64,000 bases of DNA from positions 4,092,001 to 4,156,000 of the forward strand of contig NZ_JARXYJ010000001.1 of NCBI RefSeq assembly GCF_029894425.1, written 5' to 3'. The stretch's first letter is position 1, and every line of letters starts with the position of its first letter. The position numbers were made by a program, and so were the translations under genes. Below the pieces are notes generated by a model. The model did not search any database. It had not been told where the DNA came from and worked only from the letters and a program-made list of their open reading frames with translations. Shown here one piece after another: positions 29,282 to 58,908 of the stretch. Origin of the DNA: Streptomyces sp. SAI-127. GTDB lineage: Bacteria; Actinomycetota; Actinomycetes; Streptomycetales; Streptomycetaceae.

Positions 29282-29293
29282 CTACGCGCGTAG
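29282..29293. promoter_or_regulatory. Palindromic operator CTACGCGCGTAG before purine nucleoside phosphorylase
   Basis: Perfect 12-bp palindrome. A TACCCT -10-like element follows at 29306-29311, putting the transcript start at or next to the GTG at 29319 with no ribosome site, so the message is probably leaderless. Identical palindromes precede deoC and add. Confidence 0.72.
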
Positions 29294-29318
29294 GCCCGGA
29301 CCGGCTACCCTCATCCGC

Positions 29319-30143
29319 GTGAACGCATCTCTTCTTCCGGACGACATCCAGGGCGACCCGCATGCCGCCGCTGACGCCGCCGCCGCGCGCCTGCGTGAAC
29401 TGACCGGCGCCGAGACCCACGACGTCGCCCTCGTGATGGGCTCCGGCTGGGCACCGGCCGTGGACGCCCTCGGTGCCCCCGACGCCGAGTTCCAGGTCAC
29501 CGAACTGCCCGGTTTCCCGCCGCCGGCGGTGGAGGGGCACGGCGGCAAGATCCGCTCGTACAAGATCGGCGAGAAGCGGGCGCTGGTCTTCCTGGGCCGC
29601 ACGCACTACTACGAGGGCCGCGGTGTCGCCGCCGTCGCCCACGGCGTCCGCACCGCCGTGGCCGCCGGCTGCAAGACCATCGTCCTCACCAACGGCTGCG
29701 GCGGCCTCCGCGAGGGCATGCGCCCCGGCCAGCCGGTCCTGATCAGCGACCACATCAACCTCACGGCCACATCCCCGATCATCGGCGCGAACTTCGTGGA
29801 CCTCACGGACCTCTACTCGCCCCGCCTGCGTGCCCTGTGCAAGGAGATCGACCCCAGCCTGGAGGAGGGCGTCTACGCCCAGTTCCCCGGCCCGCACTAC
29901 GAGACTCCGGCCGAGATCCGCATGGCCCGCGTCATCGGCGCGGACCTGGTGGGCATGTCGACGGTCCTCGAAGCGATCGCCGCGCGCGAGGCGGGGGCGG
30001 AGATTCTGGGCATCTCGCTGGTGACGAACCTCGCCGCGGGTATGACGGGTGAGCCGCTGAACCACGAGGAGGTTCTTCAGGCGGGCCGTGACAGTGCGAC
30101 TCGGATGGGTTCGCTGCTGGCGCAGGTGCTCGGGCGGATCTGA
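29319..30143 (+). CDS. Purine nucleoside phosphorylase
   Basis: A 274-residue trimeric-type phosphorylase that splits (deoxy)inosine and guanosine to the base and (deoxy)ribose-1-phosphate. MGSGWAP near 46 and [10 protein letters not shown] near 100 form the phosphate site. [23 protein letters not shown] near 125 and the [13 protein letters not shown] and [16 protein letters not shown] stretches (about 190-235) are family signatures. GTG start directly after the operator and promoter. The product sugar phosphate is passed to the mutase encoded 0.5 kb downstream, beyond the composite repeat. Confidence 0.95.
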
Positions 30144-30156
30144 CGATTGCCCAAGG

Positions 30157-30614
30157 GGGTGCCGGGTGCTGTCGTATGGCGGATGCGGGTCCGTTGTGGC
30201 TGGTCGCGCAGTTCCCCGCGCCCCTGGGGAGTTGCAGTCACCCGCGCCACGACGGACCGATCCCCACCTCACGCGCCCCGACGTACCGTTCGCCACTTCG
30301 CGCGCCACGACGGACCGTTCGCCGCACCGCGCGCCACGACGGACCGGTAGCCGCGTACGGCGGCAAGGGGACGGGGTGGGGGGTGTCCGCCCGCAGCGGC
30401 CGGCGTCCGATACCGGGCACCACTCAAGGGACCGAGCCGCCGGACCGAGGACGGATACCCCCCACCCCGGCCCCGACCGCCAACACACCCGCACGCGCTA
30501 CACCCGCCCCCACCGAAGCCGCACAGGCCGCCGCAGGCACTCAGGGGCGCGGGGAACTGCGCACAACGCCCGCCCCCACCGAACCCGCAGCAACCCGCCC
30601 AACCGCCGCAGGCA
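30157..30614. repeat. Composite repeat with 21-bp inverted ends, copy 2
   Basis: Second copy of the element at 13.9 kb, in the same orientation. The perfect 21-bp inverted repeats are at 30206-30226 and 30542-30562. Only about four 27-30-bp CCACGACGGACCG units (30237-30353) lie between them, against about nine in the first copy, so the element is shorter. Flanking homology reaches 30157 on the left and 30614 on the right. It begins 14 bp after the phosphorylase stop and separates it from the phosphosugar mutase gene. Confidence 0.85.
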
Positions 30615-30650
30615 CCCGCATCCGACACACAACGAGAGGCTGACGCAACC

Positions 30651-32282
30651 GTGCACGACGACCTCATCGCCCGGGCCAGGACCTGGCTCGCCGAGGACCC
30701 CGACCCGGACACCCGCGACGAGCTCGCCGAGCTCCTCGACGCCGGCGACGTCACCGAGCTCACCGCACGCTTCAGCGGCACCCTCCAGTTCGGGACCGCC
30801 GGCCTGCGCGGCGAAATCGGCGCAGGGCCGATGCGCATGAACCGCACGGTCGTCATCCGAGCCGCCGCCGGTCTCGCCGCGTACCTCAAGAAGCACGGCA
30901 GCACCGGCGGACTCGTGGTCATCGGCTACGACGCCCGCCACAAGTCCGCCGACTTCGCGCGGGACACGGCAGCGGTGATGACCGGCGCAGGCCTGAAGGC
31001 CGCCGTCCTCCCCCGCCCTCTCCCCACCCCCGTCCTGGCCTTCGCCATAAGGCACCTCGGCGCGGTGGCAGGCGTAGAGGTCACCGCCAGCCACAACCCG
31101 CCCCGCGACAACGGCTACAAGGTCTACCTCGGCGACGGCTCCCAGATCGTCCCGCCCGCCGACGCGGACATCGCCGCCGAGATCGCAGCGATCGCGAGCC
31201 TGAACGACGTCCCCCGCCCGGACACCGGCTGGCAGACCCTCGACGACGCCGTCCTGAACGCCTACCTGGCCCGCACGGACGCCGTACTCGCCAAGAGCTC
31301 CCCCCGCACCGCCCGCACCGTCTACACCGCGATGCACGGCGTGGGCAAGGACACTCTCCTCGCCGCCTTCGACCGCGCAGGTTTCCCCGCCCCGGAACTC
31401 GTCGCCGAGCAGGCCGACCCCGACCCCGACTTCCCGACGGTCGCCTTCCCCAACCCGGAAGAGCCCGGCGCGATGGACCTGGCCTTCGCGAAGGCCCGCG
31501 AGACGAATCCCGACCTGATCATCGCGAACGACCCCGACGCGGACCGCTGCGCGGTCGCCGCCAAGCGGGACGACACCTGGCGCATGCTCCGCGGCGACGA
31601 GGTGGGCGCCCTCCTCGCCGCCCACCTCGTGAGCCGCGGAGCGCACGGCACCTTCGCGGAGTCGATCGTCTCCTCCTCCCTCCTCGGCAGGATCGCCGAG
31701 AAGGCGGGCCTTCCCTACGAGGAGACCCTCACCGGCTTCAAGTGGATCGCCCGGGTGGAGGGCCTGCGCTACGGCTACGAAGAGGCCCTCGGCTACTGCG
31801 TGGACCCCGAGGGCGTACGGGACAAGGACGGCATCACCGCGGCCCTCCTCATCACGGAGCTCGCCTCCGAGCTGAAGGAACAGGGCCGCACGCTCCTCGA
31901 CCTCCTCGACGACCTGGCGGTGGACCACGGCCTGCACGCCACGGACCAGCTCGCGGTCCGTGTGGAGGACCTGTCGGTCATCGCCCGAGCGATGGAGCAG
32001 CTGCGCGAGCACCCGCCGACCGAGCTCGCGGGCCTGGTCATCACCAAGGCCGAGGACCTGACGCAGGGCACGGACCGGCTCCCGCCCACCGACGGCCTGC
32101 GCTACACGCTGGACGGCGCCCGGGTCGTCGTCCGCCCGAGCGGCACCGAGCCGAAGCTGAAGTGCTACCTGGAAGTGGTCGTCCCCGTCGCCACACACGC
32201 CGACCTCCCCACGGCCCACGCCAGAGCAACCGACCTCCTGACCACCATCAAGCGAGACCTGTCGGCAGCGGCGGGCATCTGA
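30651..32282 (+). CDS. Alpha-D-phosphohexomutase family enzyme, probable phosphopentomutase or phosphoglucomutase
   Basis: 543 residues. The phosphoserine loop is VEVTASHNPPRDNGYKVY near 143-160, the metal loop ANDPDADRCAV near 290, the sugar-specificity loop near 360 (GFKWIARVEG) and the phosphate-binding loop RPSGTEPKLKCYLEV near 500. Members of this subgroup interconvert ribose or deoxyribose 1- and 5-phosphates as well as hexose phosphates. The position between nucleoside phosphorylase and deoC fits phosphopentomutase. GTG start; the upstream AGAGGC is a weak ribosome site. Its last nine codons form the first unit of the tandem repeat that follows. Confidence 0.88.
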   Translation: MHDDLIARARTWLAEDPDPDTRDELAELLDAGDVTELTARFSGTLQFGTAGLRGEIGAGPMRMNRTVVIRAAAGLAAYLKKHGSTGGLVVIGYDARHKSADFARDTAAVMTGAGLKAAVLPRPLPTPVLAFAIRHLGAVAGVEVTASHNPPRDNGYKVYLGDGSQIVPPADADIAAEIAAIASLNDVPRPDTGWQTLDDAVLNAYLARTDAVLAKSSPRTARTVYTAMHGVGKDTLLAAFDRAGFPAPELVAEQADPDPDFPTVAFPNPEEPGAMDLAFAKARETNPDLIIANDPDADRCAVAAKRDDTWRMLRGDEVGALLAAHLVSRGAHGTFAESIVSSSLLGRIAEKAGLPYEETLTGFKWIARVEGLRYGYEEALGYCVDPEGVRDKDGITAALLITELASELKEQGRTLLDLLDDLAVDHGLHATDQLAVRVEDLSVIARAMEQLREHPPTELAGLVITKAEDLTQGTDRLPPTDGLRYTLDGARVVVRPSGTEPKLKCYLEVVVPVATHADLPTAHARATDLLTTIKRDLSAAAGI

Positions 32283-33458: not shown

Positions 33459-33470
33459 CTACGCGCGTAG
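33459..33470. promoter_or_regulatory. Palindromic operator CTACGCGCGTAG before deoC
   Basis: Perfect 12-bp palindrome immediately before a TATGCT -10 element (33472-33477). The transcript start is predicted at the GTG 33484, so the mRNA is leaderless. A repressor bound here would cover the promoter spacer. Confidence 0.78.
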
Positions 33471-33483: not shown

Positions 33484-34449
33484 GTGACCATGCCCACCAC
33501 TGCATCAGCCGCACACCCGCTCACGGACGTGACCGCGTCCGACAGCACGCTGCGCCGGTTCCTTCACGGGCTGCCCGGCGTGGACGCGGTCGGCCTGGAG
33601 GCGCGTGCCGCCTCGCTCGGTACCCGTTCCATCAAGACGACCGCGAAGGCGTACGCCATCGACCTCGCCATCTCGATGGTCGACCTGACGACGCTGGAAG
33701 GCGCGGACACCCCGGGCAAGGTCCGGGCGCTCGGCGCCAAGGCGGTCCGCCCCGACCCGACCGACCGGACGACCCCCGCCACGGCCGCGGTCTGCGTCTA
33801 TCCCGACATGGTGCCCGTGGCGAAGGAGGCCGTGGCCGGTTCCGGCGTCAAGGTCGCTTCCGTGGCCACCGCGTTCCCGGCCGGCCGCGCCGCCCTCGAC
33901 GTGAAGCTGGCCGACGTGCGCGACGCCGTGGCCGCGGGCGCCGACGAGGTCGACATGGTCATCGACCGCGGGGCGTTCCTCTCCGGCAGGTACATGAAGG
34001 TGTACGACGAGATCGTCGCCGTGCGCGAGGTCTGCGGAACGGCCGCCCGGCTCAAGGTCATCTTCGAGACCGGCGAGCTGTCGACGTACGACAACATCCG
34101 CCGCGCGAGCTGGCTCGGCATGCTGGCCGGCGCGGACTTCATCAAGACGTCCACCGGCAAGGTCGCGGTGAACGCGACCCCGGCGAACACCCTGCTGATG
34201 CTGGAGGCGGTGCGTGACTTCCGTGCGCAGACCGGCATCCAGGTAGGCGTGAAGCCGGCCGGCGGCATCAGGACGTCCAAGGACGCCATCAAGTTCCTGG
34301 TACTGGTCAACGAGACCGCGGGCGAGGACTGGCTGGACAACCACTGGTTCCGCTTCGGCGCCTCCTCGCTTCTGAACGACCTGCTGATGCAGCGTCAGAA
34401 GCTGGCCACCGGCCGCTACTCCGGCCCCGACTACGTGACGGTGGACTGA
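33484..34449 (+). CDS. deoC: Deoxyribose-phosphate aldolase
   Basis: 321 residues. Splits 2-deoxyribose-5-phosphate to glyceraldehyde-3-phosphate and acetaldehyde. The Schiff-base lysine is in DFIKTSTGK (Lys221) and the proton-relay lysine in VKPAGGIRT (near 257). The protein is longer than E. coli DeoC because of N-terminal and C-terminal extensions common to actinobacterial and animal enzymes. GTG start without a ribosome site, immediately after the promoter. It heads a likely operon with two aldehyde dehydrogenase genes (gaps of 5 and -8 bp) that can remove the acetaldehyde. Confidence 0.95.
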   Translation: MTMPTTASAAHPLTDVTASDSTLRRFLHGLPGVDAVGLEARAASLGTRSIKTTAKAYAIDLAISMVDLTTLEGADTPGKVRALGAKAVRPDPTDRTTPATAAVCVYPDMVPVAKEAVAGSGVKVASVATAFPAGRAALDVKLADVRDAVAAGADEVDMVIDRGAFLSGRYMKVYDEIVAVREVCGTAARLKVIFETGELSTYDNIRRASWLGMLAGADFIKTSTGKVAVNATPANTLLMLEAVRDFRAQTGIQVGVKPAGGIRTSKDAIKFLVLVNETAGEDWLDNHWFRFGASSLLNDLLMQRQKLATGRYSGPDYVTVD

Positions 34450-34454: not shown

Positions 34455-35918
34455 ATGGCATCGGCATTCGAATACGCACCCGCACCCGAGTCCCGCTCGG
34501 TCGTCGACATCGCGCCGTCCTACGGCCTGTTCATCGACGGCGAGTTCGTGGACGCGGCCGACGGCAAGGTCTTCAAGACCGTCTCGCCGTCCACCGAGGA
34601 GGTCCTCTCCGAGGTCGCCCAGGCCGGTTCCGAGGACGTGGACCGCGCGGTGAAGGCGGCCCGCAAGGCCTTCGAGAAGTGGTCGGCGCTGCCCGGCTCC
34701 GAGCGCGCCAAGTACCTGTTCCGCATCGCCCGGATCATCCAGGAACGCAGCCGCGAGCTCGCCGTCCTGGAGACCCTGGACAACGGCAAGCCCATCAAGG
34801 AGACCCGCGACGCCGACCTCCCCCTGGTCGCCGCGCACTTCTTCTACTACGCGGGCTGGGCCGACAAGCTGGAGCACGCCGGGTTCGGCCGGAGGACGAC
34901 GAATGGGCACAGCGGCGCTTCCCCGAAGCCCCTCGGCGTGGCCGGCCAGGTCATCCCCTGGAACTTCCCGCTGCTGATGCTGGCGTGGAAGATCGCCCCG
35001 GCGCTGGCGACCGGCAACACCGTCGTCCTGAAGCCGGCGGAGACGACCCCCCTGTCGGCGTTGTTCTTCGCGGACGTCTGCCGTCAGGCCGGCCTGCCCC
35101 GGGGTGTCGTCAACATCCTTCCGGGCTACGGCGACACGGGCGCCGCGCTGATCGCGCACCCGGACGTCAACAAGGTGGCCTTCACCGGCTCCACCGCCGT
35201 GGGCAAGGAGATCGCGCGGACCGTCGCCGGCACCCGCAAGAAGGTCACGCTCGAACTGGGCGGCAAGGGCGCCAACATCGTCTTCGACGACGCCCCGATC
35301 GACCAGGCGGTGGAGGGGATCGTCAACGGCATCTTCTTCAACCAGGGCCAGGTCTGCTGCGCGGGCTCCCGTCTCCTCGTCCAGGAGTCCATCCAGGACG
35401 AGCTGCTGGACTCCCTCAAGCGCCGCCTGTCCACCCTGCGCCTCGGCGACCCGCTCGACAAGAACACCGACATCGGCGCGATCAACTCCGCGGAGCAGCT
35501 CTCGCGGATCACCTCACTCGTCGAGAAGGGCGCGGCCGAGGGTGCCGAGCCCTGGTCTCCCGAGTGCGAACTCCCCTCCTCCGGCTACTGGTTCGCCCCG
35601 ACGCTCTTCACGAACGTCACCCAGGCGCACACCATCGCCCGCGACGAGATCTTCGGCCCGGTGCTGTCGGTCCTCACCTTCCGCACCCCGGACGAGGCCG
35701 TCGCGAAGGCCAACAACACCCAGTACGGCCTCTCGGCGGGCATCTGGACGGAGAAGGGTTCGCGGATCCTGGCGGTGGCGAACAAGCTCCGGGCCGGGGT
35801 CGTCTGGTCCAACACGTTCAACAAGTTCGACCCGACGTCGCCGTTCGGCGGCTACAAGGAGTCGGGCTTCGGCCGCGAGGGCGGTCGCCACGGCCTGGAG
35901 GCGTACCTCGATGTCTGA
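34455..35918 (+). CDS. Aldehyde dehydrogenase
   Basis: A 487-residue NAD(P)-dependent dehydrogenase. The catalytic Cys is in NQGQVCCAGSRLLV (near 301), the general-base Glu in TLELGGKGANIVF (near 268), and the coenzyme loop in FTGSTAVGKEIAR. It starts 5 nt after the deoC stop, so acetaldehyde released by DeoC is the most economical substrate, giving acetate. The last eight bases overlap the start of the next, truncated dehydrogenase gene, which implies translational coupling. Confidence 0.94.
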   Translation: MASAFEYAPAPESRSVVDIAPSYGLFIDGEFVDAADGKVFKTVSPSTEEVLSEVAQAGSEDVDRAVKAARKAFEKWSALPGSERAKYLFRIARIIQERSRELAVLETLDNGKPIKETRDADLPLVAAHFFYYAGWADKLEHAGFGRRTTNGHSGASPKPLGVAGQVIPWNFPLLMLAWKIAPALATGNTVVLKPAETTPLSALFFADVCRQAGLPRGVVNILPGYGDTGAALIAHPDVNKVAFTGSTAVGKEIARTVAGTRKKVTLELGGKGANIVFDDAPIDQAVEGIVNGIFFNQGQVCCAGSRLLVQESIQDELLDSLKRRLSTLRLGDPLDKNTDIGAINSAEQLSRITSLVEKGAAEGAEPWSPECELPSSGYWFAPTLFTNVTQAHTIARDEIFGPVLSVLTFRTPDEAVAKANNTQYGLSAGIWTEKGSRILAVANKLRAGVVWSNTFNKFDPTSPFGGYKESGFGREGGRHGLEAYLDV

Positions 35919-36798
35919 CCGACTCAGTGTCCTCAAGACCTACAAGCTGTACGTCGGGGGCAAGTTCCCCCGCTCCGAAAGCGGCCGGGTGTACGAAGTG
36001 ACCGACTCCAAGGGCAAGTGGCTGGCCAACGCGCCGCAGTCGAGCCGCAAGGACGCCCGTGACGCGGTCGTGGCCGCGCGCAAGGCGTTCGGCGGCTGGT
36101 CCGGCGCGACGGCTTACAACCGCGGCCAGGTCCTCTACCGCGTCGCGGAGATGCTGGAGGGCCGCAAGGCGCAGTTCGTCCACGAGGTGGCCGACGCCGA
36201 GGGTCTGTCCAAGTCCAGGGCGGCCGAGCAGGTCGAGGCGACGATCGACCGCTGGGTCTGGTACGCGGGCTGGACCGACAAGATCGCTCAGGTGGTGGGC
36301 GGCGGAAACCCGGTGGCGGGCCCGTACTTCAACCTGTCCTCCCCCGAGCCGACGGGCGTGGTGGCCGTCCTGGCCCCGCAGGAGTCGTCGTTCCTGGGCC
36401 TGGTCTCGGTGGTCGCCCCGGTGATCGCCACGGGCAACACGGCGATCGTGGTGGCGAGCGAGAAGTCCCCGCTCCCGGCGCTGTCCCTGGGCGAGGTCCT
36501 GGCCACCTCGGACGTCCCCGGAGGCGTGGTCAACGTCCTCTCGGGCCGTACGGCCGAGATCGCGACCCCCCTGGCGTCCCACCAGGACGTCAACGCGATC
36601 GACCTGGCGGGCGCGGACGAGGTCCTCGCGAAGGATCTGGAGATCGCGGCGGCGGACAACCTGAAGCGAGTCCTGCGTCCACAGCCTGTGGACAACTGGA
36701 CGGCGACTCCGGGCACCGACCGCCTGACGGCGTTCCTGGAGACGAAGACGGTCTGGCACCCGACGGGTTCGCTGGGGGCGTCGGGCTCGTCGTACTGA
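35911..36798 (+). CDS. Aldehyde dehydrogenase-like protein lacking the catalytic half
   Basis: 295 residues, against about 480-500 for the family. It covers the N-terminal coenzyme-binding region (YVGGKFPRSESGRVYEV, GVVAVLAPQESSFLGLV and GNTAIVVASEKSPLPALSLG). The reading then ends with a short tail, and the catalytic domain with its Cys is absent. ATG 35911 overlaps the preceding gene's end (ATGTCTGA). The order full-length plus truncated resembles the two-domain ALDH16 proteins, where a second, inactive ALDH unit is fused behind the first. It may be a structural partner of the upstream enzyme rather than a decayed gene; codon bias is normal throughout. Confidence 0.88.
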   Translation: MSDRLSVLKTYKLYVGGKFPRSESGRVYEVTDSKGKWLANAPQSSRKDARDAVVAARKAFGGWSGATAYNRGQVLYRVAEMLEGRKAQFVHEVADAEGLSKSRAAEQVEATIDRWVWYAGWTDKIAQVVGGGNPVAGPYFNLSSPEPTGVVAVLAPQESSFLGLVSVVAPVIATGNTAIVVASEKSPLPALSLGEVLATSDVPGGVVNVLSGRTAEIATPLASHQDVNAIDLAGADEVLAKDLEIAAADNLKRVLRPQPVDNWTATPGTDRLTAFLETKTVWHPTGSLGASGSSY

Positions 36799-40235: not shown

Positions 40236-41824
40236 CCCAAGCGCAAGGGGGGTTCCGCGGCTGGTTCGCGGCTCGCAAGGGTGTGTGGTCACGGCTGCGT
40301 TTCACCAGTCTGCGCCTGCGGCTCGTGGTCGTCTTCGGCCTGGTGGCGCTGACCGCCGCCGTGTCCGTGTCCGGGATCGCCTACTGGCTCAACCGCGAGG
40401 CGGTGCTCACCCGCGCCCAGGACGCGGTGCTGCGCGACTTCCAGCAGGAGATGCAGAACCGAGCGGGCGCCCTGCCGGAGGACCCCACGCAGGACGAACT
40501 CCAGCAGGCGGCGGGGCAGATGGCGGGCAGCAGCCAGCGCTTCAGCGTGCTGCTCGTCGCCGACGACGCCAACGGCAGGACGGTGTACGGCAATTCGGGC
40601 GCCCTGGACGGCTTCACGCTCGAGGACGTGCCCGTGTCGCTGCGCGAGGCGGTGAACGAGAAGCAGAAGGTCGACTCCGCCAACAAGTACGCCTATCACC
40701 TGTACTGGCAGCGGACCGTCGACCACGACACCCCGTATCTGGTCGCCGGCACGAGGGTGATCGGCGGCGGTCCGACCGGTTACATGCTCAAGTCCCTCGA
40801 GCCGGAGGCCAAGGACCTCAACTCCCTTGCCTGGTCGCTGGGTATCGCCACCGGGCTGGCGCTGATCGGCTCCGCGCTGCTCGCGCAGGCCGCCTCGACG
40901 ACCGTACTGAAGCCGGTGCACCGGCTCGGGATCGCCGCGCGCCGGCTCGGCGAGGGCAAGCTGGACACCCGGCTCAGCGTGTCGGGCACCGACGAACTCG
41001 CCGACCTCTCGAGGACGTTCAACCACGCGGCCGAGGCCCTGGAGAAGCGGGTCGACGACATGGCCGCCCGCGACAACGCCTCACGGCGCTTCGTGGCGGA
41101 CATGAGCCATGAACTCCGTACACCGCTCACCGCGATCACCGCCGTCACGGAGATCCTGGAGGAGGAGCTGGAGGCGGAGTCCGGCTCGATGGACCCGATG
41201 ATCGAGCCGGCCGTGCGGCTGGTGGTCAGCGAGACGCGCAGGCTCAATGACCTGGTCGAGAACCTCATGGAGGTCACCCGCTTCGACGCGGGTACGGCCC
41301 GGCTGGTCCTCGACGACGTCGACGTGGCCGACCAGATCACCGCGTGCATCGACGCGCGCGCGTGGCTGGACGCGGTGGAGCTGGACGCCGAGCGCGGCAT
41401 CCACGCCCGCCTCGACCCGCGCCGCCTCGACGTGATCCTGGCCAACCTGATCGGCAACGCCCTCAAGCACGGCGGCTCCCCGGTGCGGGTGGCGGTGCGC
41501 GCGGCGGCCGACGAGGTGGTCATCGGGGTCCGCGACCACGGCCCCGGCATCCCCGAGGACGTCCTGCCGCACGTCTTCGACCGCTTCTACAAGGCCAGCG
41601 CCTCCCGCCCGCGTTCCGAGGGCAGCGGCCTCGGCCTGTCCATCGCCCGGGAGAACGCCCACATCCACGGCGGTGAGATCACCGCGGCGAACTCCCCCGA
41701 CGGAGGCGCCGTCTTCACACTCCGGCTCCCCCGGGACGCCTCGGCGCTGGCCGAGGAACTCCTGGAGGCCAAGAAGGACGACGGCGTGTCGAAGAACGGC
41801 GTGTCGAAGAAGGGGGACGCCTGA
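40232..41824 (+). CDS. afsQ2: Sensor histidine kinase AfsQ2
   Basis: 530 residues. Transmembrane helices lie at about 30-50 and 195-217 and flank an extracytoplasmic sensor domain of about 145 residues. A HAMP segment leads to the dimerisation domain with the phospho-acceptor His293 in SHELRTPL. The HATPase domain has NLIGNALKHGG, the G1 box DHGPGIPEDVL and GSGLGLSIA. The C-terminus repeats GVSKNGVSKKGDA after the kinase core. It phosphorylates AfsQ1 and is translationally coupled to the genes on both sides. Confidence 0.95.
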   Translation: MTQAQGGFRGWFAARKGVWSRLRFTSLRLRLVVVFGLVALTAAVSVSGIAYWLNREAVLTRAQDAVLRDFQQEMQNRAGALPEDPTQDELQQAAGQMAGSSQRFSVLLVADDANGRTVYGNSGALDGFTLEDVPVSLREAVNEKQKVDSANKYAYHLYWQRTVDHDTPYLVAGTRVIGGGPTGYMLKSLEPEAKDLNSLAWSLGIATGLALIGSALLAQAASTTVLKPVHRLGIAARRLGEGKLDTRLSVSGTDELADLSRTFNHAAEALEKRVDDMAARDNASRRFVADMSHELRTPLTAITAVTEILEEELEAESGSMDPMIEPAVRLVVSETRRLNDLVENLMEVTRFDAGTARLVLDDVDVADQITACIDARAWLDAVELDAERGIHARLDPRRLDVILANLIGNALKHGGSPVRVAVRAAADEVVIGVRDHGPGIPEDVLPHVFDRFYKASASRPRSEGSGLGLSIARENAHIHGGEITAANSPDGGAVFTLRLPRDASALAEELLEAKKDDGVSKNGVSKKGDA

Positions 41825-42489
41825 TGAGCTCCGAGAGGCGACACCGCCGGGGGCGTGCGGTACGGGCGGAGGGTGCGTGCGCCGGGCTGAACGTACGCCG
41901 GCTGCTGGCGCTGCCCCTGCTCGGGCTGCTGGTCGCCGGGTGCGGGATCCGCTCCACCGAGGTGCCCACCGACTTCGGGCCTGCGCCCTCGCGGGTGCGG
42001 TGCTCGTTGTCGGAGCCGGACACGACGACGCAGGCCTCGCGGGGGCTGGCCGTGCAGGTGTTCCTGTTGTGCGGGTCGTCGCTGGTGGCCGTGGACCGGA
42101 GCCTCAGGGTCCCGGACGGGACCGCGGACTCCGCGCGAAGGGTGCTGGTCGCCCAGGGGCTCCTCGACCAGCTCGCCGAGACACCGTCGGCGGCCGAGCG
42201 GGAGGCCGGGTATCAGACGTATGTGCGCGGCGGCATGACCGTCAGCGGGCCGCGCGCCAAGGATCCCGAGGACACCTTCCGGCTGAGCACCCCGCCCACC
42301 GAGCTCTCCGCCTACGCGCTCGCCCAGGTGGTGTGCACGTTCTCCGACTCGGCCGCGGCCGAGGGCGACGGCTCCGTCATCCTCGGCGGCCCCACGAACA
42401 CCCCTCTGCGCCGCTACGACTGCACGGACGAGGTCCGCTCCCAGCCGGGCAGCCGGCAGCCCGCGTCGAGCGAGGTGACGGACGGCTGA
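41824..42489 (+). CDS. AfsQ3-like lipoprotein of the AfsQ operon
   Basis: 221 residues. A basic N-terminus precedes a hydrophobic stretch ending in the lipobox LLVAGC near 41, so the protein is predicted to be lipid-anchored outside the membrane. The mature region resembles the GerMN/sporulation-type lipoproteins found beside two-component systems. The ATG shares four bases (ATGA) with the end of afsQ2, so it is the third gene of the operon. In S. coelicolor the equivalent gene is called afsQ3, and a sensory or accessory role is assumed rather than proven. Confidence 0.83.
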   Translation: MSSERRHRRGRAVRAEGACAGLNVRRLLALPLLGLLVAGCGIRSTEVPTDFGPAPSRVRCSLSEPDTTTQASRGLAVQVFLLCGSSLVAVDRSLRVPDGTADSARRVLVAQGLLDQLAETPSAAEREAGYQTYVRGGMTVSGPRAKDPEDTFRLSTPPTELSAYALAQVVCTFSDSAAAEGDGSVILGGPTNTPLRRYDCTDEVRSQPGSRQPASSEVTDG

Positions 42490-43427: not shown

Positions 43428-43448
43428 CCAACCCCCTACGCGCGTACG

Positions 43449-44006: not shown

Positions 44007-45170
44007 TCAGCTCTCCTCGGCCACAGAACCGCTGGTGGAGGCGGTCTGCTGGAACAGCCATTCGGACTTCAGCTCGGCATATCCGGGCTTGATGACGTCA
44101 TTGATCATCGCGAGTCTTTCATCGAAAGGAATGAACGCTGATTTCATCGCATTGACGGAGAACCACTGGAGATCGTCGAGGGCATAGCCGAACGCGTCGA
44201 CGAGGTGCTCGAATTCCCGGCTCATGCTGGTGCCGGACATCAGCCGGTTGTCGGTGTTCACGGTCGCCCGGAAGTGCAGGCGCCGCAGGAGCCCGATCGG
44301 GTGCTCGGCGTACGACGAGGCCGCCCCGGTCTGCAGATTGGAGCTGGGGCACAGTTCCAGCGGGATCCGCTTGTCCCGGACGTAGGAGGCGAGCCGCCCG
44401 AGCTTGACCGTGCCGTCCTCGTGGACCTGGATGTCGTCGATGATGCGCACACCGTGCCCGAGCCGGTCGGCGCCGCACCACTGCAGGGCCTGCCAGATGG
44501 ACGGCAGCCCGAAGGCCTCGCCGGCGTGGATGGTGAAGTGGTTGTTCTCGCGCTTCAGGTACTCGAAGGCGTCGAGGTGGCGGGTGGGCGGGTAACCGGC
44601 CTCCGCGCCCGCGATGTCGAAGCCGACGACGCCCAGGTCGCGGTACCGGTTGGCGAGTTCGGCGATCTCCAGGGCACGGGCCGCGTGCCGCATCGCGGTG
44701 AGCAGGGCGCCGACCCGGATGCGGTGGCCGTTCGCCCTGGCCCTGCGCTCCCCTTCCCGGAAGCCCTCGTTGACGGCCTCGACGACCTCTTCGAGGGTCA
44801 GGCCCTTCTCCAGGTGCTGCTCGGGGGCGTAGCGCACCTCGGCGTAGACCACGCCGTCCTCGGCGAGGTCCTCGGCGCACTCGGCGGCCACCCGCACCAG
44901 CGCCTCACGGGTCTGCATGACGCCGACGGTGTGCGAGAAGGTCTCCAAGTACCGCTCCAGCGAACCGGAGTCGGCGGATTCGCGGAACCAGACGCCCAGC
45001 CGGTCCGCGTCGGTCTCGGGGAGCCCGGAGTACCCGCTGTCCCGGGCGAGGTCGACGATCGTGCCGGGGCGCAGCCCGCCGTCGAGGTGATCGTGCAGCA
45101 GAACCTTGGGTGCCCGGCGGATCTGGTCCGAGCTCGGGGGGTTCCCCATCCGGTCAGTCTTGCTCGTCAT
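44007..45170 (-). CDS. add: Adenosine deaminase
   Basis: 387 residues; converts adenosine and deoxyadenosine to (deoxy)inosine. Zinc-binding HDHLDGG (His26, His28) near the N-terminus, HAGEAFG near 217 with the catalytic Glu, and the C-terminal [10 protein letters not shown] and SMSREFEHL regions are intact. The ATG at 45168-45170 coincides with the predicted transcript start behind a TAGAGT -10 and the operator, so the mRNA is probably leaderless. Its product is the substrate of the phosphorylase at 29.3 kb. Confidence 0.95.
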
Positions 45171-45186: not shown

Positions 45187-45198
45187 CTACGCGCGTAG
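45187..45198. promoter_or_regulatory. Palindromic operator CTACGCGCGTAG before add
   Basis: Perfect 12-bp palindrome, 4 bp upstream of a minus-strand TAGAGT -10 element (45177-45182). It is 17 bp from the add start and about 85 bp from the divergent hydrolase start, so it more likely serves add. Confidence 0.76.
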
Positions 45199-48850: not shown

Positions 48851-49867
48851 ATGACGGACAGTACGGCGACGACGACAGACCTCGACCTCAGGCTCGAGAA
48901 ACACCGCACCGAGCTGACGGGGTACTGCTACCGCATGCTCGGCTCCTCCTTCGAGGCCGAGGACGCGGTGCAGGACACGATGGTGCGGGCCTGGCGGAGC
49001 TACGACAAGTTCGAGGGCCGTTCCAGCCTCCGCTCATGGCTGTACCGCATCGCGACGAACGTCTGCCTGGACATGCTGACCGCGGGCAACAAGCGCGCCC
49101 GCCCCATGGACCTCTCCGAGTCGACCCCCCTCGCCCAGGCCGCCCTCTCCCCCCGCCCCGACCACACCTGGCTGGAGCCGATGCCGGACAACCGCATCCT
49201 GCCGACGGTCGAGGACCCGGCGGAGGCGGCGGTCGCCAAGGAGACCGTGCGGCTCGCCTTCATGGCCGCCCTGCAGCAACTGCCGCCCAAGCAGCGCGCG
49301 GTGCTGATCCTGCGCGAGGTGCTGGCGTGGAAGGCGAGCGAGGTCGCCGAACTGCTCGACACCTCCGTCGCCTCGGTCAACAGCGCCCTCCAGCGAGCCC
49401 GCGCCACCCTCGCCGAGCGGGAAGAGCATGGCGCCGACGCGGCCGTGTCCGACCCGCTGGACGAGGAGCAGCAGAAACTCCTGGACCGCTATGTGAAGGC
49501 GTTCGAGGGGTACGACATGACGGCTCTGACGGCCCTCCTCCACGAGGACGCCATCATGACGATGCCGCCGTTCGACCTCTGGCTGACGGGCCACGACGAC
49601 ATCACGGGCTTCATGACGACCCTGGGCTCGGCCTGCGAGGGCTCACGTCTGGTGCCGGTGCAGGTCAACGGCCTGCCGGGGTTCGCCCAGTACAAGCCGG
49701 ACCCGGAGAAGGGCGGTCACACCCCCTGGGCGGTACAGGTGCTGGAGATCTCAGACGGCCGGCTCACCGGGTTCCACTTCTTCCTCGACACCCAGCGCTG
49801 GTTCCCCTTGTTCGGACTGCCCCTCCACCTCGAAGCGGAGGCCGACGAGGTCAAGGAGGGCGTGTAG
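48851..49867 (+). CDS. ECF-type sigma factor with NTF2-like C-terminus (SigX5/SigG group)
   Basis: 338 residues. Sigma region 2 (YRMLGSSFEAEDAVQDTMVR near 28-47) and region 4 (LREVLAWKASEVAELLDTSV near 155-175) are followed by an NTF2-like domain of about 130 residues. That architecture matches the TIGR02960/SigX5 group, in which the C-terminal domain is thought to replace an anti-sigma factor. No anti-sigma gene is adjacent, but a convergent STAS-domain gene overlaps its last 117 bp. The ATG at 48851 has GGGGTGGGTGG upstream. The regulon is unknown. Confidence 0.9.
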   Translation: MTDSTATTTDLDLRLEKHRTELTGYCYRMLGSSFEAEDAVQDTMVRAWRSYDKFEGRSSLRSWLYRIATNVCLDMLTAGNKRARPMDLSESTPLAQAALSPRPDHTWLEPMPDNRILPTVEDPAEAAVAKETVRLAFMAALQQLPPKQRAVLILREVLAWKASEVAELLDTSVASVNSALQRARATLAEREEHGADAAVSDPLDEEQQKLLDRYVKAFEGYDMTALTALLHEDAIMTMPPFDLWLTGHDDITGFMTTLGSACEGSRLVPVQVNGLPGFAQYKPDPEKGGHTPWAVQVLEISDGRLTGFHFFLDTQRWFPLFGLPLHLEAEADEVKEGV

Positions 49868-51875: not shown

Positions 51876-53159
<1,284 letters not shown>

Positions 53160-53180: not shown

Positions 53181-53582
53181 TTACTTGGTGAGATGCCCCG
53201 GCCCGAAGGCCTGCGGCAGCATCTCCGACAGCGGCAGGATCCCCGCCGGGGTCTCCATGAGCAGGTCGGGGCCGCCGAACTCGTACAGCAGCTGCCGGCA
53301 GCGGCCGCAGGGGACGAGGATCTCGCCCCTGCCGTCGACGCAGGTGAAGTGCGTGAGGCGGCCGCCGCCCGTGTTCTGCAGCTCCGAGACCAGACCGCAC
53401 TCGGCGCACAGGCCGAGGCCGTAGGAGGCGTTCTCGACGTTGCAGCCGGTGATCGTACGGCCGTCGTCGACCAGGGCGGCCACGCCGACCGGGTAGCCGG
53501 AGTACGGGGCGTACGCCCGGGACATGGCGTCCCGGGCCCGCTCGCGCAGCGACTCCCAGTCGACGTCGGACCGCGGGGTCAC
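53181..53582 (-). CDS. cdd: Cytidine deaminase
   Basis: 133 residues; turns cytidine and deoxycytidine into uridine and deoxyuridine, the substrates of DeoA. The zinc motif is CAE at 59-61 (GLGLCAECGLV) with PCGRC at 91-95, the homotetrameric-type arrangement with three Cys ligands. AYAPYSGYPVGVA near 23-35 is the N-terminal family signature. The GTG start shares GTGA with the stop of the upstream permease gene, so translation is coupled to the importer. Confidence 0.96.
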   Translation of the reverse strand: MTPRSDVDWESLRERARDAMSRAYAPYSGYPVGVAALVDDGRTITGCNVENASYGLGLCAECGLVSELQNTGGGRLTHFTCVDGRGEILVPCGRCRQLLYEFGGPDLLMETPAGILPLSEMLPQAFGPGHLTK

Positions 53583-54862
53583 TTGCCCTGGCCCTTCCGG
53601 TAACGCATGCCGTCCGCCTTGGGCATCCGCAGGCGCTGCGCGGACAGCGACAGCACCAGCAGGGTGACGACGTACGGGGTGGCGCCCACGAAGTCGCTCG
53701 GGACCTCGTCGGTGACCAGGTACCAGACCAGGACGCCCGCGGCCACCATGAGGCTGATGCCGCCCTGCCAGTGGGCCTTCTTGTACAGCTTCCAGCCGGC
53801 CATCGCCAGGAGCAGCACGAACAGCAGGAGCAGCAGCGCGTGGACGGTCTCGCCGCCGCTGCGCAGCTGGAGCGCGTCGGAGTAGCCGAACAGGCCCGCG
53901 CCCATGGCGAGTCCGCCGGGCCGCCAGTTGCCGAAGATCATGGCCGCCAGACCGATGTAGCCGCGTCCGCCGGTCTGGCCCTCCAGGTAGGTGTGCGAGG
54001 TGACCAGGGCCAGGAAGGCGCCGCCGAGGCCGGCGAGGCCGCCGGAGACGGCCACGGCCATGTACTTGTACTTGTAGACGTTGACGCCGAGGGACTCGGC
54101 GGCCATCGGGTTCTCACCGCAGGAGCGCAGCCGCAGGCCGAACGGGGTGCGCCACAGCAGCCACCAGCTGCCGACGAACAGCACGACCGCCAGGACCGTC
54201 ACGATGGACAGGTCGGTGAACAGACCGCCGAGGATGCCCGCGATGTCGGAGATCAGGAACCAGTGGTGGTTCTCGATGGAGTGCAGTCCGCTCGAGATGC
54301 CCGGGACGTCGAAGCTGGGCAGCGAGTCCACGGGCGGGGACTGCTTGGGGTTGCCGCCCGCTTCCTCCGCCTTGCCGTCCACGAAGAAGAGCTTGGCGAG
54401 GTACTGGGTGGTGCCGAGCGCGAGGAGGTTGATCGCGACACCGGAGACGATGTGGTCGACGCCGAAGGTGACGGTCGCGACCGCGTGCAGCAGGCCGCCC
54501 AGGACGCCGAAGCCCACGCCGCACAGGAGGCCGAGCCAGGGGCTGGACTGCCAGCCGATCCAGCCGGCGCCGAAGGTGCCGAGGATCATCATGCCCTCGA
54601 GGCCGATGTTGACCACGCCGGACCGCTCGGACCACAGACCGGCCAGACCGGCGAGGCCGATCGGCACGGCCAGGCTGAGCGCCGCGGAGACCTGGCCCTC
54701 GGAGGTGAGCTGGTCGGAGCCGGAGATGACGCGGACCGCCGCGACGAGCAGCAGCGCACCGGCCACGATCATGAGGATCTGGCCGAGCGAACGGCCCGAC
54801 CGGGTGGCGGTGTCCGCCTTGGGTGCCGCGGGGGGCGGCGTGTCGGTCATCGTGGCAGTCAT
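53579..54862 (-). CDS. Nucleoside ABC transporter permease (second subunit)
   Basis: 427 residues of the BPD_transp_2 family with about 10-11 helices. Regions such as LWSERSGVVNIGLEGMMILG and LRSCGENPMAAESLGVNVYKYKY are typical of simple-sugar/nucleoside (BmpA-linked, NupQ-like) permeases. A long extracytoplasmic loop near 185-215 (KAEEAGGNPKQSPPVDSLPS) is notable. ATG 54860-54862 follows GGAGG. The start overlaps the upstream permease stop by one base (TGATG), ensuring matched synthesis of the two channel halves. Confidence 0.92.
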   Translation of the reverse strand: MTATMTDTPPPAAPKADTATRSGRSLGQILMIVAGALLLVAAVRVISGSDQLTSEGQVSAALSLAVPIGLAGLAGLWSERSGVVNIGLEGMMILGTFGAGWIGWQSSPWLGLLCGVGFGVLGGLLHAVATVTFGVDHIVSGVAINLLALGTTQYLAKLFFVDGKAEEAGGNPKQSPPVDSLPSFDVPGISSGLHSIENHHWFLISDIAGILGGLFTDLSIVTVLAVVLFVGSWWLLWRTPFGLRLRSCGENPMAAESLGVNVYKYKYMAVAVSGGLAGLGGAFLALVTSHTYLEGQTGGRGYIGLAAMIFGNWRPGGLAMGAGLFGYSDALQLRSGGETVHALLLLLFVLLLAMAGWKLYKKAHWQGGISLMVAAGVLVWYLVTDEVPSDFVGATPYVVTLLVLSLSAQRLRMPKADGMRYRKGQGK

Positions 54863-55989
54863 CACGCCACCTCCTGCTTCTGGGTCGTGGCTGCGGCCTG
54901 GGCGGCGAGCTCGGCGCCGACCCGCTGCTGCTGGCGCTTGAGTCCGTAACGGCGTACGACTTCGTAGGCGATGACGACGCACAGGACGATGACGCCCTGG
55001 ATGACGCCGAGGATCTCCTTGTCGTAGCCCTCGAACTCCAGGTGGTTGGTCGTGCGCTCCAGGAAGCCCCACAGCAGCGCGCCCAGCGCGATGCCGACCG
55101 GGTTGTTGCGGCCGAGCAGGGCGATGGCGATGCCGGTGAAGCCGATGCCGGTCGGGAAGTCGTTGCTGAACTGGTGGCTGTCGTTGAGGAGGGTCGGCAT
55201 GCCGATCAGGCCGGCCACCGCGCCCGAGATGAGCATGCTGGTGGCGATCATCCTCTTCACCGAGACACCGCTCGCGGCTGCGGCGCTCTCGGACTGGCCG
55301 ACGGTGCGCAGGTCGAAGCCGAAGCGGGTGCGGCCGAGGACGAACCAGTACGCGATGCCGACGAGCGCGGCGATGACGATGAAGCCCCACAGCACGCCCG
55401 CGGCGCCGGTGTCGATCTGGAAGAAGTACGAGGACGACGGCAGCGGCTTGGTGGAGACGACCGTGCCGCCGGCCTGGAGTTCGGCGAGCTTTCCGGGCTG
55501 GAGCAGATAGGCGATGATCGCGGTGGCGATCGCGTTGAGCATGATCGTCGAGATGACCTCGCTGACGCCGCGGGTCACCTTCAGAACGCCCGCGATGCCC
55601 GCCCACACGGCACCGGTGCCCATGGCGCACAGGATGATCAGCGGGATGGAGATCCAGCCGGGCGTGGTCAGCGCGCCACCGAGGACGGCGGCGAAGAACG
55701 CGGCGATGCGGTACTGGCCGTCGACGCCGATGTTGAACAGGTTCATGCGGAAGCCGATGGCCACCGCGACACCCGCGAGGTAGTACGTCGTCGCCTTGTT
55801 GAGGATGTAGACCTGGCTGTCGCTGGCGGAGCCGTAGGTCAGCATGTCGCTGAAGGCGGCGCCCGGGTTCTTGCCGGTGGCGAGGATCACCAGGGTGGTC
55901 ACGACGAGTGCGGCGACGACCGCCAGCAGCGGCGCCGCGATGCCGAGGAGCAGCCGCTCCTTGTCGATGCGTTGGGTCAGCTTGTTCAT
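54862..55989 (-). CDS. Nucleoside ABC transporter permease (first subunit)
   Basis: 375 residues of the BPD_transp_2 family (NupP-like), with the conserved GFRMNLFNIGVDGQYRIAAF near 78-97 and FGFDLRTVGQSESAAAASGV near 225, the coupling-helix EAA-like region. About ten transmembrane helices. ATG 55987-55989 overlaps the ATPase stop (ATGA). It pairs with the next permease to form the channel fed by the BMP lipoprotein. Confidence 0.92.
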   Translation of the reverse strand: MNKLTQRIDKERLLLGIAAPLLAVVAALVVTTLVILATGKNPGAAFSDMLTYGSASDSQVYILNKATTYYLAGVAVAIGFRMNLFNIGVDGQYRIAAFFAAVLGGALTTPGWISIPLIILCAMGTGAVWAGIAGVLKVTRGVSEVISTIMLNAIATAIIAYLLQPGKLAELQAGGTVVSTKPLPSSSYFFQIDTGAAGVLWGFIVIAALVGIAYWFVLGRTRFGFDLRTVGQSESAAAASGVSVKRMIATSMLISGAVAGLIGMPTLLNDSHQFSNDFPTGIGFTGIAIALLGRNNPVGIALGALLWGFLERTTNHLEFEGYDKEILGVIQGVIVLCVVIAYEVVRRYGLKRQQQRVGAELAAQAAATTQKQEVA

Positions 55990-57566
55990 CGGGCGTCGTC
56001 CTCGTCGTCCGCTGCGGAGTCCTCTGCGTGCTCCAGGTGCCCGGTGGCAGCACCGGTCATCGCGGAGCCCAGCTCCTCGGGGGTGATGGTGGCGGGGTCG
56101 GCGTCGGCGACCAGTCGGCCCCGGTACATCACCCGCAGGGTGTCGGACAGGCCGATGAGCTCGTCCAGGTCGGCCGAGATCAGCAGCACGGCCAGGCCCT
56201 CGCGGCGGGCCTGGCGGATGTGGTCCCAGATCGCGGCCTGCGCGCCGACGTCCACACCGCGGGTGGGGTGGGCGGCGATGAGCAGCGTGGGCGCGTGGCT
56301 CATCTCGCGGCCGACGATCAGCTTCTGCTGGTTGCCGCCGGACAGGGAGGCGGCGGTGACGTCGATGCCCGGGGTGCGGACGTCGTACGCCTTGATGATG
56401 CGCTCGGTGTCGGTGCGGGCCGCCTTGATGTCGAGCAGCTGGCCGCGGGAGTTGGGCTTCTCGGTGACGTGGCCGAGGATGCGGTTCTCCCACAGCGGGG
56501 CCTCGAGGAGCAGACCGTGGCGGTGGCGGTCCTCGGGGATGTAGCCGACGCCGGCCTCGCGGCGGCGGCGGGTGGGGGCGTGGGAGATGTCGGTGCCGTC
56601 GAGGACGACCGTGCCGGAGTCGGGGTTGCGGATGCCCATGATGGCCTCGACCAGTTCGGACTGGCCGTTGCCCTCCACACCGGCGATACCGAGGACCTCG
56701 CCCTTGTGGATGGTGAACGAGATGTCGTCGAGGATGATGCGCTCGATGCCGTCGAGGTCGGTCTGGGCCAGGCGCAGACCGTCCAGCTTCAGCAGCGGGA
56801 CGTCGGTGACCGTGGACTCCTCGGTCTCCGGGGTGGGCAGTTCGCTGCCGACCATCAGCTCGGCGAGCTGCTTGGGGGTGGTGCCGGCGGGCTTGACCGT
56901 GCCGACGGTGGTGCCGCGCCGGATGACCGTGATCTCGTCGGCGACGGAGAGGACTTCGCCGAGCTTGTGCGAGATGAAGATGACGGTGAGGCCTTCGGCC
57001 TTGAGCTCGCGCAGGTTGTCGAAGAGGGCGTCGACCTCCTGCGGCACGAGGACGGCGGTGGGCTCGTCGAGGATCAGCGTCTTGGCGCCGCGGTAGAGGA
57101 CCTTGAGGATCTCCACGCGCTGGCGGTCGGCGACGCCGAGCTCCTCCAGCAGGACGTCGGGGCGTACGTTCAGGCTGTACGCGTTGGAGATCTCCCTGAT
57201 CTTCGCGCGGGCCTTGGCGCCGATGCCGTACAGCTTCTCCGCGCCCAGGACGACGTTCTCCAGGACCGTGAGGTTGTCGGCGAGCATGAAGTGCTGGTGC
57301 ACCATGCCGATGCCGCGGCCGATGGCGTCGGCGGGGGTGTGGAAGGTGACCGTCTCGCCGTTCACCGTGATGGTGCCCTCGTCCGGCTGCTGCATGCCGT
57401 AGAGGATCTTCATCAGGGTGGACTTGCCGGCACCGTTCTCACCGCACAGGGCGTGCACGGTGCCCGTGCGGACGGTGATGTCGATGTCCTTGTTGGCGAC
57501 GACGCCGGGGAATCGCTTGGTGATGCCGCGCAGTTCGACGGCAGCGGGAGGGCTGGACGCGTTGAT
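55986..57566 (-). CDS. Nucleoside ABC transporter ATPase with an apparent ATC start
   Basis: A double ATPase of about 526 residues (two ABC domains, NupO/RbsA type). The first Walker A is GENGAGKST (near 43-51). The first signature is largely lost: the family's LSVGxxQRVEILK appears as LGVADRQRVEILK. The second half has VEGNGQSELVEAI and SGGNQQKLIVGREM. No ATG, GTG or TTG precedes the essential VELRGITKRFPGVVANKDID strand. The frame is open back to a stop at 57642, and the only codon well placed behind GAGGAGAG is ATC at 57564-57566 (reading INASSPPAAVELRG). A GTG at 57458 would cut off the first beta sheet. I therefore infer an AUC start or a base error. It heads the operon with two permeases, cdd and deoA. 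Confidence 0.85.
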   Translation of the reverse strand: MNASSPPAAVELRGITKRFPGVVANKDIDITVRTGTVHALCGENGAGKSTLMKILYGMQQPDEGTITVNGETVTFHTPADAIGRGIGMVHQHFMLADNLTVLENVVLGAEKLYGIGAKARAKIREISNAYSLNVRPDVLLEELGVADRQRVEILKVLYRGAKTLILDEPTAVLVPQEVDALFDNLRELKAEGLTVIFISHKLGEVLSVADEITVIRRGTTVGTVKPAGTTPKQLAELMVGSELPTPETEESTVTDVPLLKLDGLRLAQTDLDGIERIILDDISFTIHKGEVLGIAGVEGNGQSELVEAIMGIRNPDSGTVVLDGTDISHAPTRRRREAGVGYIPEDRHRHGLLLEAPLWENRILGHVTEKPNSRGQLLDIKAARTDTERIIKAYDVRTPGIDVTAASLSGGNQQKLIVGREMSHAPTLLIAAHPTRGVDVGAQAAIWDHIRQARREGLAVLLISADLDELIGLSDTLRVMYRGRLVADADPATITPEELGSAMTGAATGHLEHAEDSAADDEDDAR

Positions 57567-57641
57567 GGCGCACTCTCCTCGGGGAAAAGGGGCTGCGTAG
57601 GGGAGGGCAGGCGTCGGTGACGCTAGCGCGGCAACTCCGTG

Positions 57642-57653
57642 CTACACGCGTAG
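57642..57653. promoter_or_regulatory. Operator-like CTACACGCGTAG before the importer operon
   Basis: Matches the CTACGCGCGTAG palindrome at 11 of 12 positions. It is flanked by a wider inverted repeat, CAACTC (57632-57637) and GAGTTG (57653-57658). A TAGCGT -10-like element lies 16 bp downstream on the minus strand. Confidence 0.65.
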
Positions 57654-57670
57654 AGTTGACACATTGTTAT

Positions 57671-57709
57671 GGCTCGACGAGGGGGTTGTCGAGGCCCCCT
57701 CGTCGAGCC
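57671..57709 (-). terminator. Strong hairpin between the BMP gene and importer ATPase gene
   Basis: GGCTCGACGAGGGGG pairs perfectly with CCCCCTCGTCGAGCC across a 9-nt loop. It separates the binding-protein transcript from the ATPase operon, which allows excess binding protein. Confidence 0.87.
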
Positions 57710-57733
57710 CGGGTTCCGGCGGGAACCGTCAGG

Positions 57734-58792
57734 TCAGCTGGTCTTGACCTTGACGGTGCCGTCGACGATCTTCTTCTTCGCGGCGTCCAGCTGCGGCTGG
57801 ATGTCGTCGATGAAGCCACCGCTGGTGGCCAGGCCGACACCGCCCTTGGCGAGGGAGTAGATCTGGTTGCCGGTCAGCGGCTTGCCGTCGTGCACGGACT
57901 TGACGAAGTCGTAGACGCCGACGTCGACGTTCTTGACCATCGAGGTCAGGATCGAGTTCTTGTACTTGCTCAGACCCGGGATGTTGTACTGGTCCGAGTC
58001 CACGCCGATGGCCCACGCGCCCTTGACGCCGGAGACGGCCTCGATGGCGCCGTTGCCGGAGGAGCCGGCCGCGGTGTAGATCACGTCGGCGCCGCCGTCG
58101 AGCTGGCCGGACGCGGCCTCCTTGCCCTTGTCGGGGCTGGCGAAGCCGGACAGGTCGGAGCCGTGGGTCAGGTACTGGACGTCGACCTTGACGCCGGGCT
58201 TGGTGTCCTTGACGCCCTGGACGTAGCCCGCCGCGAACTTCTTGATCAGCGGGGTGTCCACACCGCCGATGAAGCCGACGTGGGACTTCTTGGTCTTCAG
58301 CGCGGCGGCGACACCGGCGAGGTAGGAGCCCTGCTCCTCGGTGAAGGTGATGCTGTCGACGTTCTTGGCGGTCGCGACCGAGTCGATGAGGCCGAAGTTG
58401 ACCTTCGGGTACTTCGCGGCGACCTTGTCCACCGAGGTGGCGTAGGAGAAGCCGACGGCGACGATCGGGTTGTAACCGGCGTCCGCCAGGTCGGTCAGGC
58501 GCTGCTCACGGTCGGCCTCGGTGTCGGAGCTCTTGGCGGTGAGCTCCTTGATGGAACCGTTGAACTCCTTCTCGGCCTTGTCGGCACCGCGCGCGGCGGA
58601 GTCGTTGAAGGAACGGTCACCGCGGCCGCCGACGTCGTAGGCGAGACCGATCTTGATACCGCCCTTGCCGCTGCCCGCGGAGGCGGACGAGGAGCTGTCG
58701 TCCTCGGAGGAGGTGCTGCCACAGGCTGTGGCAGTCAGTGCGAGAGCTGCGGTGGCGATACACGCAGCGGAAAGCTTGGCTACCCGGCGCAC
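57734..58792 (-). CDS. BMP-family nucleoside-binding lipoprotein
   Basis: 352 residues. The signal peptide ends in the lipobox ATAC with Cys24, followed by a Ser/Asp-rich tether. The mature domain has the BMP (PnrA/Med) pattern: GIKIGLAYDVGGRGDRSFND near 45-64, GVGFSYATSVDKVA-type and GSSGNGAIEAV segments, and DSDQYNIPG near 265. Those features match PnrA/BmpA proteins that capture purine and other nucleosides for ABC import. The GTG at 58790-58792 is placed by AAGGAG 7 nt upstream; longer upstream reading lacks a signal-peptide layout. It is separately transcribed ahead of the transporter operon. Confidence 0.92.
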   Translation of the reverse strand: MRRVAKLSAACIATAALALTATACGSTSSEDDSSSSASAGSGKGGIKIGLAYDVGGRGDRSFNDSAARGADKAEKEFNGSIKELTAKSSDTEADREQRLTDLADAGYNPIVAVGFSYATSVDKVAAKYPKVNFGLIDSVATAKNVDSITFTEEQGSYLAGVAAALKTKKSHVGFIGGVDTPLIKKFAAGYVQGVKDTKPGVKVDVQYLTHGSDLSGFASPDKGKEAASGQLDGGADVIYTAAGSSGNGAIEAVSGVKGAWAIGVDSDQYNIPGLSKYKNSILTSMVKNVDVGVYDFVKSVHDGKPLTGNQIYSLAKGGVGLATSGGFIDDIQPQLDAAKKKIVDGTVKVKTS

Positions 58793-58896
58793 GGGAGGCT
58801 CCTTCACCTGACCTGAGCGCCTTGTCGGCGCTTCATGTGAGCACCATGCCAGTGCCCGGGCCTGTACGCCCCTGCGGCGTTGGCTTCGCGGCATCG

Positions 58897-58908
58897 TAAC
58901 GCGCGTAG
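58897..58908. promoter_or_regulatory. Operator-like half-conserved palindrome before the BMP gene
   Basis: TAACGCGCGTAG matches CTACGCGCGTAG at 10 of 12 positions. On the minus strand it overlaps a TACGAT -10-like element, about 105 bp upstream of the GTG, leaving a leader with a ribosome site, unlike the leaderless add, deoC and phosphorylase genes. Confidence 0.6.

Follow-up and report, generated by a model that had tools for sequence, protein, structure and literature searches.

The window analysed here is a 64-kb stretch lying at 4.09-4.16 Mb on a contig of the 10.7-Mb genome of Streptomyces sp. SAI-127, and it carries genes for nucleoside uptake and breakdown together with several copies of a short palindrome, CTACGCGCGTAG. 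Gene starts were taken from a simple in-house caller. The names originally given to the purine-nucleoside phosphorylase (PNP), deoC, add, BMP lipoprotein, ABC ATPase, permease, cdd and deoA genes agree with Pfam and NCBIfam. In window coordinates, the features are as follows.

26087-27049, minus strand: DeoR-family regulator (HTH_DeoR and DeoRC domains), a local candidate, unsupported as the reader of the palindrome
29282-29293, plus strand: putative operator CTACGCGCGTAG upstream of PNP, with the 11-mer TCTACGCGCGT from 29281; perfect in 80/80 loci at -36/-37
29319-30143, plus strand: PNP (TIGR01698), GTG start
30651-32282, plus strand: PGM/PMM-family phosphosugar mutase, perhaps a phosphopentomutase
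33459-33470, minus strand: putative deoC operator, 11-mer on the minus strand, within the 17-bp spacer of a plus-strand TGTACA/TATGCT promoter
33529-34449, plus strand: deoC, deoxyribose-phosphate aldolase (TIGR00126)
34455-35918, plus strand: aldehyde dehydrogenase (family search), next after deoC
35911-36798, plus strand: half-length aldehyde dehydrogenase-like protein (profile positions 6-232 of 461)
43436-43447, strand unassigned: one-mismatch copy, unconserved and probably a chance occurrence
44007-45170, minus strand: add, adenosine deaminase (NF006847)
45187-45198, minus strand: putative add operator, directly upstream of a -10-like TAGAGT and the ATG; 29/29 ortholog loci
51876-53159, minus strand: deoA, thymidine/pyrimidine phosphorylase (family search)
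53181-53582, minus strand: cdd, cytidine deaminase (family search)
53579-57458, minus strand: importer of two BPD_transp_2 permeases and an ABC ATPase (family search)
57642-57653, minus strand: putative operator CTACGCGTGTAG (gene orientation) upstream of importer-cdd-deoA
57734-58807, minus strand: BMP-type substrate-binding lipoprotein (PF02608)
58897-58908, minus strand: putative BMP operator CTACGCGCGTTA, the same 12 letters in 30/30 loci

The half-length aldehyde dehydrogenase adjoins the full-length one and has homologs in the equivalent position in other genera, and 48851-49867 encodes a sigma factor whose C-terminal domain is SnoaL-like.

A scan of the window bore out the positions and mismatch counts of the original prediction, i.e., perfect copies at 29282, 33459 and 45187 (upstream of PNP, deoC and add), one mismatch at 57642 and two at 58897; it also returned three copies absent from that prediction, at 43436 (one mismatch) and at 42129 and 59370 (two each). 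The perfect 12-mer has an order-1 expectation of 0.002 in the window, in keeping with the claim that such sites are unlikely to arise by chance. At up to two mismatches, eight copies were present versus 3.85 expected, a count of at least eight being reached in 1/100 shuffles. The 11-mer unit TCTACGCGCGT occurs four times, upstream of PNP, deoC, add and BMP. The palindrome is real and not a product of chance. The copy at 43436 was rejected as a target because it is unconserved, being present among 29 add loci in the host only.

Genome-wide counts, compared throughout with a reversed control of the palindrome, define the unit that matters. The host genome holds four perfect copies of CTACGCGCGTAG versus one of the control, the fourth (C1:9637651) covering codons 3-6 of add2, which encodes a second adenosine deaminase. 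With up to one mismatch there are 34 copies versus 44 for the control, so that copies with one mismatch are, taken together, unenriched; most of them are therefore chance occurrences, and the treatment of every such copy as a site was dropped. Enrichment is confined to copies retaining TCTACGCGCGT, which the aligned sites have in common, followed by N and then mostly R. Across six genomes, TCTACGCGCGT occurs 102 times versus 18 for its control. Among the 23 copies in the host, 16 lie within ~160 bp upstream of a called start or in the first codons, one lies in a convergent gap, and six lie deep within genes, approximately matching the host control count of five. Perfect copies and the TCTACGCGCGT unit thus stand up to the scan against unrelated genes and gene interiors proposed at the outset, and are conserved in relatives as well. 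Two sets of copies, far inside AfsR-like genes and inside a 542/602-aa gene, were dropped as targets though conserved in four and three of six genomes, respectively. The 11-mer is also kept in a convergent gap near DUF397/XRE-like genes (named by eye) in three genomes (L401, L386, L373), and in one genome (G181, L338) it lies in the gap upstream of a GntR-family gene.

Conservation at orthologous promoters, as had been predicted for related species, is close to complete. The PNP site is perfect in 80/80 loci (the best 80 of 555 confirmed relatives, all Streptomyces, the closest PNP among the named loci being that of a Streptomyces canus strain at 99%), and the deoC site is likewise perfect in 63/63 loci where deoC was found, the gene being absent from the fetched DNA of the other 17. 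At add, the site is perfect in 29/29 fetched ortholog loci, with the 14 letters TCTACGCGCGTAGG invariant; this sample derives from matches in 30/31 genus genomes, with one paralog from an incomplete genome (L141) excluded. The BMP site is fixed as CTACGCGCGTTA in 30/30 loci (the best 30 among 45 matching genomes). At these same loci the importer site is perfect in 14 and has one mismatch in two, and the remaining 14 show no such site in the flank fetched. A CpdB-like nucleotidase gene, so named from its best NCBIfam match, which falls below the cut-off of that family, has a site (up to two mismatches, within 100 bp) in 30/30 loci (the best 30 of 38 genomes); five of these loci carry another copy at a distance of 14 bp. 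At the PNP, deoC, add, BMP and nucleotidase loci, the sites are invariant and their surroundings variable. Upstream of the PNP operator, a further block of some 30 bases at 29237-29269 (GGAAACGACAAGACAACGATCGCC) is strongly conserved across the 80 loci and is perhaps a second control element.

Beyond the genus, the palindrome follows the family. Every one of 31 host-genus genomes in a class-wide sample holds two to six perfect copies, and any perfect copy is found in 10/265 genomes of other families; in five of those 10, inspected by eye, none lies upstream of a nucleoside gene. In an order-wide sample, the host genus scores 47/47, and two other families score 3/13, with one copy each, two of them inside the same gene. 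Within the family sample, a perfect copy is present in 60/61 genomes and 16/17 genera, with 192 perfect copies in total versus 30 for the control; the control itself occurs in 25/61 genomes, and single perfect copies therefore need gene context. Such context was examined in 20 chosen stretches from other genera, where the site is present at PNP in 17/17 cases (nine perfect, seven with one mismatch, one with two), at deoC in 12/12 (one perfect, 11 with one mismatch), and at add in 4/4 assessable cases, all perfect, the single changes CTACGCGCATAG and CTACGCGTGTAG being found at these same promoters. The one genome without a perfect copy (G362) has near copies at PNP, deoC, BMP and the nucleotidase. 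The operator is genuine and family-wide, and the literature searched does not describe it.

The original prediction of a dispersed nucleoside salvage regulon holds in that a conserved putative operator is shared, but its scope was too narrow, since nuclease, RNase, nucleotidase, phosphatase and purS genes carry the site as well. In the host, TCTACGCGCGT is found at PNP, deoC, add, BMP, add2, purS and a CpdB-like paralog; at genes for an exo/endonuclease-phosphatase protein (two copies), a GmrSD_C protein, a ribonuclease and an acid phosphatase; and at genes for a PLD-like protein, an M4 peptidase, an alpha-lytic-type protease and a DUF4429 protein, the last site overlapping the end of the preceding gene. 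An ortholog tally over the six genomes gives the CpdB-like nucleotidase 6, the LTD/exo-endonuclease group 6 (the G376 member having the LTD domain only), GmrSD_C 5, DUF4429 5 (a DUF4429-SHOCT gene, L403 and orthologs), purS 3, ribonuclease 3, M4 peptidase 3, acid phosphatase 2 and protease 2, with PNP, deoC, add and BMP undercounted because some cluster loci were not refetched. Paired sites 40 bp apart precede the nuclease gene in three genomes. The HNH type of the GmrSD_C protein, the guanyl specificity of the ribonuclease and a 5'-nucleotidase (L149) are assignments by eye or recall. The two proteases and DUF4429 fit poorly with a purely nucleoside theme, and the proteases are perhaps regulon targets.

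In the host genome, one-mismatch copies stand 38 bp upstream of the CpdB-like nucleotidase gene, 27 bp upstream of its 61% paralog, 57 bp upstream of purS, 80 bp upstream of a Xan_ur permease gene and 31 bp upstream of a carbon-nitrogen hydrolase gene, after which come genes for an aminotransferase and a PucR protein; a further copy precedes a third gene encoding 5'-nucleotidase domains, with an ATG 83 bp downstream. Among the six genomes, TCTACGCGCGT also occurs in G376 at a PurF-like gene, with a GTG 63 bp downstream, and, with less conviction, at a PurN-like gene (~300 bp), both labels resting on Pfam domains, and 48 bp upstream of a Transp_cyt_pur permease in G145. In ten other genus genomes, chosen for holding a perfect copy outside the cluster and with most genes named by eye, the extra copy lies at the start codon of a second adenosine deaminase in seven (all but that of L016 named by eye) and upstream of purS, a nucleotidase-like gene and a HAD hydrolase gene in one each. 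In all seven add2 genes printed, i.e., that of the host and six of the seven fetched, the site employs the codons GCT and GTA.

Where the sites sit bears on how they would act. With promoter boxes assigned by eye, the deoC site lies inside the spacer of its promoter, the add site directly abuts its -10-like box, and the nucleotidase site lies directly downstream of a -10-like CAGAAT at most loci; in add2, GmrSD_C and M4 genes, the site falls within codons 3-7. As the sites overlap core promoters or first codons, a repressor fits and an activator does not, and repression would thus be the best reading of these positions. Our analysis establishes the sites, their positions and conservation, and the family of most target proteins. 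On this footing, the conserved word is very probably an on/off switch read by a control protein, and we consider it highly likely that, in Streptomycetaceae, one dimeric helix-turn-helix repressor governs a nucleic-acid scavenging chain through the operator TCTACGCGCGTNR, whose full form is TCTACGCGCGTAGA. We infer that a single protein reads all sites and that its inducer would be a nucleoside or a (deoxy)ribose phosphate. When bound, the repressor would obstruct RNA polymerase, either at the core promoter or within the first codons; once nucleic-acid breakdown products are present, it would be released and the whole chain would come on together. This chain would start with nucleases, an RNase and a phosphatase that appear to be exported, judging by their N-termini as read by eye, proceed through CpdB-like nucleotidases and BMP-ABC uptake, and end with deaminases, phosphorylases, the phosphosugar mutase, deoC and aldehyde dehydrogenase, yielding glyceraldehyde-3-phosphate and acetate. 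More tentatively, one repressor may control a "dead-biomass" programme comprising exported DNases, a ribonuclease, nucleotidases, a phosphatase, nucleobase and nucleoside uptake, full catabolism, adjustment of purine synthesis and exported proteases, through which lysed hyphae or neighbours would be recycled.

Two readings would dispense with a DNA-binding protein. Chance combined with shared ancestry could draw on the lack of genome-wide enrichment among one-mismatch copies, but it has next to no probability given the invariance of the sites within variable flanks, the excess of TCTACGCGCGT over its control (102 versus 18) and the repeated occurrence at unlinked orthologs. An RNA hairpin in leaders would suit those sites that lie in leaders or first codons; the deoC and add sites lie upstream of a -10-like box and would therefore stay untranscribed from those promoters, making a hairpin very improbable. 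The local candidate for the reader of the operator was the DeoR-family protein encoded at 26.1 kb, which we take to be the counterpart of SCO4920 and which would sense deoxyribose- or ribose-phosphate. Its gene has a strong match in 61/61 family genomes (the next paralog being ~45%), the order DeoR-Lpd-GGCT-PNP is kept in 17/17 PNP-holding loci of other genera, and residues 1-44 are identical in 19/19 printed rows. Autoregulation through the same operator is usual, though not obligatory, in the DeoR family, but the promoter of this gene has no site at up to two mismatches in 79/79 loci, and its best match has at least three mismatches in 117/117 loci (a few genomes counted twice). Instead, it bears a different conserved block, GAACAACTTC...GCAAACTGCTGAAA (window 27050-27180; 117 loci), which is likely the operator of the DeoR-family regulator itself; in the window, the longer piece of this block matches its own promoter with one mismatch and position 40300 with two, and the shorter piece occurs once at its own promoter and at four other places. 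Operator and DeoR ortholog co-occur inside the family, but outside it the site precedes add in 0/17 genomes with DeoR orthologs. Relatives in other families (50-71% identical, 20 loci) have two-mismatch copies only, none at up to one mismatch, and stand directly beside a sugar-type ABC ATPase in 7/20 loci, the neighbouring proteins having been subjected to family search in two (L273 and L281). The proposal that this gene encodes the regulator therefore went unsupported, and we regard it as unlikely; the evidence is indecisive because DeoR-family helix-turn-helix domains are alike and specificity may have shifted.

The further suggestion, that an even palindrome with a central CG would also suit a LacI or GntR protein elsewhere in the genome, fared better for the former family than for the latter. 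A GntR fit is poor, as the core of the palindrome is AC-N4-GT and a GT-Nx-AC core, sought in the palindrome on the model of the GntR consensus GT-N-AC given in the available text of PMC4494728, was not found there. For LacI, the central CG in an even palindrome is present, and LacI regulators of nucleoside use are described in the available text of PMC4052901; the same text reports even motifs of 16-22 nt for 1251/1303 LacI regulators, but only about 11-14 letters are conserved here. A LacI-type reader is possible, though doubtful.

No description of the motif as an operator was found in the literature searched, most subscription journals being outside its scope, and nothing on the regulon was found in S. 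coelicolor SCO locus-tag papers or the iModulon paper. The letters of CTACGCGCGTAG surfaced only as a crystallised A-DNA duplex (PDB 5MVK), a context unrelated to regulation; the exact 12-mer takes the A form in that crystal. What emerges is a regulon that is new but of a known kind, its putative operator being an orphan. For a major family of soil bacteria, it defines a precise candidate operator through which nucleic-acid use may be switched on, and it connects intracellular catabolism with enzymes that are probably exported. Confirmation of repression would, in addition, make promoters inducible by DNA or nucleosides available.

Ultimately, the closest parallels lie in known nucleoside and purine systems. 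Gammaproteobacterial CytR and DeoR regulons join nucleoside uptake to deo/cdd-type catabolic genes under shared operators, an arrangement resembling the one proposed here; the operator differs, however, and nuclease, RNase, nucleotidase and purS genes are included in the present case. The LacI-family PurR of E. coli reads an even palindrome with a central CG and ACGC/GCGT arms, features that recur in our palindrome, but the arm spacing differs and the targets here are mainly catabolic. Nearer in lineage is UriR, a LacI-family regulator of Corynebacterium origin according to its NCBIfam name, which is named for nucleoside use in the available text of PMC4052901 and, by description only, would likewise represent a local, actinobacterial nucleoside-use regulon.
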